Of a stretch of DNA of 64,000 nt, positions 52,065-53,182 are shown in pieces. The stretch's first letter is position 1; each line of letters opens with the position of its first letter. Position numbers and translations under genes: made by a program. This DNA is from Vulcanimicrobiota bacterium (GTDB taxonomy: Bacteria; Vulcanimicrobiota; Vulcanimicrobiia; Vulcanimicrobiales; Vulcanimicrobiaceae): positions 1,798,001-1,862,000 of the forward strand of contig PMSI01000001.1 in assembly GCA_003168375.1 (NCBI GenBank), given 5' to 3'. The notes below the pieces were generated by a model. The model had not been told where the DNA came from and made no database searches. It saw only the letters and a list, made by a program, of their open reading frames with translations.

Positions 52065-52349
52065 TCATCGCGGCACGCGGAGCTTCTGGCCGATTTGGAG
52101 GTTCGCGCCGGTCAGGTGGTTCGTCGCGATGATCTGGTCGACGGTCGATTGGACGTCGCCGGTCGCGGGGGTCCTGGCCTCGGCGACCGACCAGAGGGTC
52201 TGACCGCTATGGACGGTGACCGTCGTGTACGCGACGGGCGGCGCGGCGTGGACCGTGCTCGACAGGGCGGGGAGCGTCACGGCCAGGCTGAGCCCGCCGA
52301 GGGCCACCAGCGGCATGAGGGTCAGTTTTCGTTTGGACGTCCCGTACAT
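52065..52349 (-). CDS. Small LysM protein, likely YneA-like SOS cell-division inhibitor
   Basis: 94 residues. A short cytoplasmic start (MYGTSKRKLTL), one membrane segment or signal (about 11-33) and a single LysM domain (VHSGQTLWSVAEA ... NLQIGQKLRVPR, about 45-93). It is transcribed divergently from lexA and has its own SOS box. This is the arrangement of yneA in Firmicutes, where a LysM membrane protein delays septation during DNA damage. GGAAG precedes the ATG at 52349. Confidence 0.75.
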   Translation of the reverse strand: MYGTSKRKLTLMPLVALGGLSLAVTLPALSSTVHAAPPVAYTTVTVHSGQTLWSVAEARTPATGDVQSTVDQIIATNHLTGANLQIGQKLRVPR

Positions 52350-52378
52350 GGTGCTTCCGATCCCCCTAGATGTTGTGC

Positions 52379-52392
52379 CGAACGCTCGTTCG
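52379..52392. promoter_or_regulatory. SOS box 1 (LexA operator), in front of the LysM gene
   Basis: CGAACGCTCGTTCG has perfect inverted arms (CGAACG/CGTTCG). It matches the Gram-positive LexA consensus CGAAC-RNRY-GTTYC except at the third spacer base and the final base. It lies 30 bases upstream of the LysM ATG and just downstream of the predicted -10. Confidence 0.75.
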
Positions 52393-52400
52393 TCCCCCAT

Positions 52401-52430
52401 ATGGTACCAAGGCGGGTCCTCCCGCGTCAA
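52401..52430 (-). promoter_or_regulatory. Promoter of the LysM gene
   Basis: On the minus strand, TTGACG (52425-52430) and TACCAT (52401-52406) are 18 bases apart. SOS box 1 begins 8 bases downstream of the -10, so LexA would cover the transcription start. Confidence 0.55.
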
Positions 52431-52436
52431 TGGGTT

Positions 52437-52450
52437 CGAACATATGTTTG
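52437..52450. promoter_or_regulatory. SOS box 2 (LexA operator), in front of lexA
   Basis: CGAACATATGTTTG matches the Bacillus-type LexA consensus in all but the last base. It overlaps the -35 of the predicted lexA promoter, which fits autorepression. Confidence 0.8.
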
Positions 52451-52476
52451 CTCCGGCTGGGGTTCTGTGCTAGGAT
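52448..52476 (+). promoter_or_regulatory. Promoter of lexA
   Basis: TTGCTC (52448-52453) and TAGGAT (52471-52476) are separated by 17 bases. The -35 overlaps SOS box 2. Confidence 0.6.
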
Positions 52477-52567
52477 GTGCAGCAATCAAATGCGGCGGCC
52501 CCGGCCGTCGTCGGCGAGCGTCTGTTGGCGCAGTGCCTACTGGGTGGCATTCTTCTAGGAGGGATGA

Positions 52568-53182
52568 ATGGCCGAACGGGCCACGACGGAGAGGCAGCAG
52601 CGGATCCTCGAGGTGATCCGCGAGTTCAGCTCCGAACACGGGTACCCGCCTTCGGTGCGGGAGATCGGCGAGCGCGTCGGCCTCTCGTCGTCGTCGACGG
52701 TGCAGTCGCACTTGAAAACGCTCGAGCGCCGCGGTCTGCTCAGACGCGATCCCACCAAGCCGCGCGCGCTGGTGGCGAGCCGCCCCGCCGACGAGCCGGA
52801 GAAGGTCGCGTCGGCGACGCTGCCGCTGCTCGGCCGCGTCGCGGCCGGCGTGCCGATCACCGCGACGGAGAACCTCGAGGAGCAGTTCGTGCTGCCGGCC
52901 TCGTGGGTGCCGCGCAGCGGCGGCTTCATGCTGCGCGTCAAAGGCGACTCGATGATCGACGCGGCGATCCTGGACGGCGACCTCATCGTCGTCGAGCCGC
53001 GCCCGAATGCGAACAACGGCGAGATCGTGGTCGCCATGATCGACGGCGAGGCGACGGTCAAACGGTTCTACCGTGAGAGCGGCCGGGTGCGGCTCCAGCC
53101 GGAGAACGCCACCATGGCGCCAATCTACGCCGACGATGTCACCATCGTCGGCCGGGTCGAAGCCGTCATCCGCAAGCTCTAG
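52568..53182 (+). CDS. lexA: SOS repressor LexA
   Basis: 204 residues. The N-terminal winged helix has YPPSVREIGERVGLSSSSTVQSHLKTLERRG. The self-cleavage site is Ala93-Gly94 (RVAAGVPI), with nucleophile Ser128 (GDSM) and base Lys165 (ATVKRF). It represses DNA-damage genes and is cleaved when RecA is activated. AGGAGG is well placed before the ATG. Confidence 0.96.
   Translation: MAERATTERQQRILEVIREFSSEHGYPPSVREIGERVGLSSSSTVQSHLKTLERRGLLRRDPTKPRALVASRPADEPEKVASATLPLLGRVAAGVPITATENLEEQFVLPASWVPRSGGFMLRVKGDSMIDAAILDGDLIVVEPRPNANNGEIVVAMIDGEATVKRFYRESGRVRLQPENATMAPIYADDVTIVGRVEAVIRKL

Follow-up and report, generated by a model that had tools for sequence, protein, structure and literature searches.

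A divergent lexA/LysM gene pair with conserved LexA-type boxes in a class of diderm bacteria: a probable SOS module of the YneA/ChiZ kind

We analyzed a 64,000-nucleotide stretch of DNA (the window) from a Vulcanimicrobiota bacterium (GenBank assembly GCA_003168375.1, contig PMSI01000001.1). In the window, lexA and a small gene for a LysM protein point away from each other across a shared spacer, and the pair adjoins a TonB-dependent receptor gene. The genes, the two LexA-type boxes between them, and the promoter elements are located as follows (window coordinates):

52065-52349, minus strand: LysM gene (yneA/chiZ-like), start codon ATG at 52349-52347, stop codon at 52065-52067, 94 amino acids
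52379-52392: LexA-type box 1, CGAACGCTCGTTCG, 0 mismatches to CGAAC-N4-GTTCG
52401-52406, minus strand: -10 element of the LysM gene, TACCAT, with a TG extension; aligned position kept across relatives
52425-52430, minus strand: -35 element of the LysM gene, TTGACG (most relatives have TTGACA)
52437-52450: LexA-type box 2, CGAACATATGTTTG, one mismatch to CGAAC-N4-GTTCG
52448-52453, plus strand: -35 element of lexA, TTGCTC; its TTG is common to the GTTTG half-site of box 2
52471-52476, plus strand: -10 element of lexA, TAGGAT; conserved TGgTA position in relatives
52557-52563, plus strand: ribosome-binding site of lexA, AGGAGGG, read from the sequence
52568-53182, plus strand: lexA, 204 amino acids, with a winged helix-turn-helix, Ala93-Gly94, Ser128, and Lys165

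The lexA promoter has a 17-bp spacer between its -35 and -10 elements, and box 2 overlaps the -35; the same box is also upstream of the LysM -35, at a distance of 6 nt. In the LysM promoter, the spacer is 18 bp and box 1 begins 8 nt past the -10, so that the LysM transcript is likely to start inside this box. The first-pass annotation of this DNA had reported two palindromes at 52379-52392 and 52437-52450, one overlapping the lexA -35 and the other just downstream of the LysM -10. The positions proved exact, and the promoter coordinates identify the former as box 2 and the latter as box 1. Both palindromes had also been described as near-perfect matches to the Bacillus consensus. Box 2 fits this description better than box 1, in which one position of the core (GCTC) does not conform to RNRY.

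The LexA protein matches TIGR00498 with an E value of 3.5e-68 (229 bits, above the curated cutoff of 111), and the Pfam domains LexA_DNA_bind and Peptidase_S24 are both present. The Ala93-Gly94 cleavage site and the Ser128/Lys165 dyad can be read in its sequence. Relatives of this LexA at 68 to 75% identity include Candidatus Eremiobacterota MAGs.

A loose match to the box motif means nothing by itself in this window, which is GC rich and holds 121 sites when two mismatches are allowed. This frequency is what favors taking the palindromes for chance matches or for sites of another regulator. We counted 37 copies of the strict motif CRAAC-N4-GTTYG in the genome (4.43 Mb), versus 10 of a reversed control pattern; at that density, two copies in a spacer of ~215 bp would, by our own arithmetic, be an event of ~1e-6. 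The decisive evidence is comparative. We compared 84 lexA loci of the class, all with a LexA identity of 60% or more; a few species are represented twice among them. At least two boxes lie upstream of lexA in all 84, and the two nearest to lexA are 57 to 63 bp apart in 80 of them. In every locus (84/84), the half-site nearest to lexA reads GTTTG and never GTTCG, presumably because the same bases form part of the lexA -35. Three boxes are found in 25 loci, the third (as in L117, L119, and L125) being regularly spaced ~40 bp farther from lexA, within the LysM leader. With the boxes kept in every locus, and with the strict motif also preceding recA, dnaE2, and an imuA-like gene, we rejected chance palindromes; that reading, or a different regulator, is extremely improbable. 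Conservation across the class settles, at the level of sequence, that the boxes are real. It could still be argued that they serve lexA only and that the LysM gene merely shares the spacer as a constitutively expressed passenger, since box 2 by itself would suffice for lexA autoregulation. However, the start site at which box 1 lies belongs to the LysM gene rather than to lexA, box 1 is conserved throughout the class along with box 2, and the third box of some 25 loci lies deeper still on the LysM side. We therefore rejected the lexA-only reading on conservation as well and regard it as very unlikely. LexA control of the divergent lexA/LysM pair is strongly supported by the comparison.

The strict motif was also found before other genes of the same genome:

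C6:1129696: recA, strict box at the gene start
C4:865600: imuA-like gene, strict box at the gene start
C4:882488: dnaE2, strict box at the gene start
C6:1016872: alkB-like gene (AlkB-like oxygenase), strict box at the gene start
C1:18175: radical SAM gene, strict box; best match to the Rv2578c family, below the cutoff of that family
C6:683187 (L195:5750-7693): class II (vitamin B12-dependent) ribonucleotide reductase with an intein, box at L195:5681-5694

The boxes of recA, the imuA-like gene, dnaE2, the alkB-like gene, and the ribonucleotide reductase (here 62 bp upstream) are perfect. Because the motif precedes lexA, recA, the imuA-like gene, and dnaE2, there is good support for a CGAAC-N4-GTTCG SOS regulon in the window's genome, with LexA binding predicted from the boxes. 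Together with the class-wide conservation, these sites strongly support the first-pass claim of Gram-positive-type SOS boxes at a divergent lexA/LysM pair in a diderm. The regulon varies among relatives: of 30, only 9 have a strict box no farther than 300 bp from recA. Elsewhere in the genome, the box CAAACGTATGTTCG is followed within a few bases by an open reading frame of 305 amino acids (L193:2016-2933; G000:C6:398190), a candidate SOS gene whose product gave no Pfam or NCBIfam match.

A divergent LysM open reading frame accompanies lexA in 83 of the 84 class loci; the single exception lies at a contig end, with just 268 bp upstream of lexA. When we searched 121 genomes of the phylum with a profile, the LysM family was present in 89 of the 96 class genomes. 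In the MAGs of the other seven, a full-length lexA is missing as well, so that the absence looks like MAG incompleteness. The same search did not find the family in other classes of the phylum, where it returned one weak LysM match. The pair and the box were likewise absent from ten lexA loci of other classes (LexA 32 to 45% identical; locus L180 has 210 bp upstream only). In these classes, TGAAC-N4-GTTCA palindromes stand 27 to 63 bp before lexA (L177, L178, and L180), a pattern that suggests a shifted LexA operator. Among the LexA relatives fetched from Bacillota and Actinomycetota, 42 of 76 have a divergent LysM open reading frame beside them. Two class genomes carry second LysM copies away from lexA (L276:2022-2306 in G105 and L277:1972-2250 in G102). 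The copy in G105 adjoins a Crp-like open reading frame, and no LexA box was seen near either copy in the available flanks (L277 stops at a contig end).

In a LexA tree, the class was placed near Coriobacteriia and Gaiellaceae with weak support, and a single clade for the whole phylum was not rejected (AU test, P = 0.3). The module may be older than the local split between monoderms and diderms, or the class may have acquired it along with lexA.

The LysM protein consists of a basic N terminus, one hydrophobic segment (residues 10 to 36), a short linker, and a LysM domain (residues 43 to 93; Pfam LysM, E = 1.7e-9), which is the sole Pfam LysM match in the genome. AlphaFold modeled an N-terminal hydrophobic helix at low confidence (pLDDT, 52 to 61) and a beta-alpha-alpha-beta LysM fold (pLDDT, ~80). 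The leading Foldseek neighbors in the PDB are LysM domains, none of which reaches an E value of 0.001 for the 94-residue model. The top NCBIfam family is YneA (NF010723; E = 2.7e-11), and the protein is the genome's best match to this profile. Its score of 43.3 bits does not reach the curated cutoff of 60 bits. Three other class members with a match scored 32 to 54 bits, and lexA-divergent proteins of clostridial, coriobacterial, and actinobacterial origin scored 61 to 68, 55, and 39 to 46 bits, respectively. The scores thus make the LysM protein a YneA relative at actinobacterial distance, not a certified YneA.

Over 82 sequences, the mean pairwise identity is 56% in the membrane segment (residues 10 to 36) versus 51% in the LysM domain, and Pro13 and Pro27 of the membrane segment are invariant (82/82). 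Judged by these alignments, conservation of the membrane segment is no lower than that of the LysM domain. Such conservation is unexpected for a mere export signal and, with the invariant prolines, argues for specific membrane contacts. The N-terminal segment could instead be a cleavable signal peptide (VHA-A).

Small membrane inhibitors with a LysM domain are encoded next to lexA in Bacillus, Listeria, and Mycobacterium (PMC6851548). In YneA, the transmembrane segment binds TM7 of FtsW, and the LysM domain must bind peptidoglycan (PMC13396833). By homology, topology, and context, division inhibition like that of YneA is likely for the window's protein, and from the analogy we infer FtsW as its target. 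We consider it probable that the locus is an SOS module of the YneA/ChiZ kind, divergent and autoregulated by LexA, that produces a single-pass membrane division inhibitor. In undamaged cells, a LexA dimer on box 2 would block the lexA -35, and LexA on box 1 would lie across the LysM transcription start; box 2 is placed just upstream of the LysM -35 as well. Upon DNA damage, LexA would cleave itself at Ala93-Gly94 under the action of RecA filaments, and the two promoters would become active. With its N-terminal helix, the 94-residue product would then insert into the inner membrane, leaving the LysM domain held in the periplasm beside the membrane, where it would bind new septal peptidoglycan. 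The helix would probably contact the divisome (by analogy, FtsW), and septation would pause until LexA reaccumulates. The first-pass annotation had proposed that this diderm has the same damage checkpoint as Firmicutes. The regulatory half of that proposal is strongly supported, and the division half is likely for a protein that scores 43 bits against a YneA cutoff of 60. As the pair and its LexA-type operators occur in every complete class locus examined, it is probable that diderms, too, have the checkpoint.

The LysM protein might also be SOS induced and yet act as a periplasmic factor that binds or remodels the wall, protecting or repairing the envelope without stopping division. LysM is only a glycan-binding fold, the N terminus might be a signal peptide that is removed, and ChiZ is reported as a wall hydrolase in work cited in PMC6851548. 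However, the protein has 94 residues and no catalytic domain, and a cleaved signal peptide is unlikely to keep two invariant prolines or to exceed the mature domain in conservation. The characterized LysM proteins divergent from lexA in Gram-positive bacteria, moreover, inhibit division. An envelope factor is thus an unlikely, though not negligible, explanation next to the division inhibitor that we favor.

Several known systems resemble the proposed division inhibitor. YneA of Bacillus and Listeria is small and single pass, with a transmembrane segment at the N terminus and the LysM domain outside the cytoplasm, and its gene is divergent from lexA and LexA regulated (PMC6851548, PMC13396833). 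The window's protein likewise is small, has a LysM domain, and is encoded divergently from lexA; its single-pass topology and its LexA regulation are predicted. Unlike YneA, it has two invariant prolines in the putative transmembrane segment, and its host has an outer membrane and a thin wall. ChiZ (Rv2719c) and other LysM neighbors of lexA in Actinomycetota, including Coriobacteriia, share the divergent arrangement, the CGAAC-N4-GTTCG boxes, and similar YneA profile scores, and the LexA proteins of these loci are about 50 to 59% identical to that of the window. Their hosts, however, are monoderm or have a mycomembrane, and many of the proteins have long N-terminal extensions that are missing in the window's protein. 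SosA of Staphylococcus and DivS of Corynebacterium are also SOS-induced small membrane division inhibitors encoded next to lexA, but they have no LysM domain. In diderms, SOS-induced division inhibitors are represented by SidA of Caulobacter and SulA of Escherichia coli, neither of which is a LysM protein; their operators also differ. SulA is a cytosolic protein that targets FtsZ, and SidA is a small membrane protein that targets the FtsW complex (PMC13396833).

The cultivated relative Vulcanimicrobium alpinus is Gram negative, with an outer membrane covered by lipopolysaccharide, and grows as rods to filaments of 92 µm (PMC9758169). Omp85/BamA is present in the window's genome; LptD was not found there with the Pfam model, which matched only two proteobacterial controls. 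The gene order and the box type are already known from Bacillota and Actinomycetota. What is new is their occurrence, with near-absolute conservation, in a whole diderm class. In the open-access papers that we searched, we found nothing on SOS in Eremiobacterota or on YneA in diderms. Paired lexA/LysM division checkpoints have been described in Gram-positive lineages, and these papers contain none from a phylum whose outer membrane bears lipopolysaccharide. If the checkpoint reading is true, the YneA-type mechanism would be independent of a thick wall, and the module would be older than the monoderm/diderm divide or have moved across it. The availability of V. alpinus in culture makes this reading directly testable.

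A perfect LexA-type box also lies upstream of mraZ in the window's genome (G000:C4:1256953-1256966; L012:1501-1514; L269). The cluster there comprises mraZ, rsmH, an ftsL-sized open reading frame, ftsI, two Mur ligase genes, mraY, and ftsW. An mraZ box was found in 8 of 30 class loci, namely, in each of the four sampled same-genus genomes that gave an mraZ match and in four others (the relatives' loci are L210, L211, L213, L222, L229, L232, and L237). Given how often the motif occurs across the genome, we would expect, by our own arithmetic, fewer than 0.1 such boxes, against the 8 observed. Tentatively, the SOS response of this lipopolysaccharide-diderm class may hold division twice, with a proline-marked YneA-like helix blocking the septal synthase and LexA controlling the mraZ cluster, in a module older than the monoderm/diderm split or acquired with lexA; we regard this combined picture as possible but doubtful. 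In the SOS meta-regulon of gut Firmicutes, a CGAAC-type box precedes mraZ and is bound by Bacillus subtilis LexA in vitro (PMC3998124). The Eremiobacterota case is alike and purely computational, and given the binding seen for the gut Firmicutes site, the mraZ link is of a known kind in a new place.
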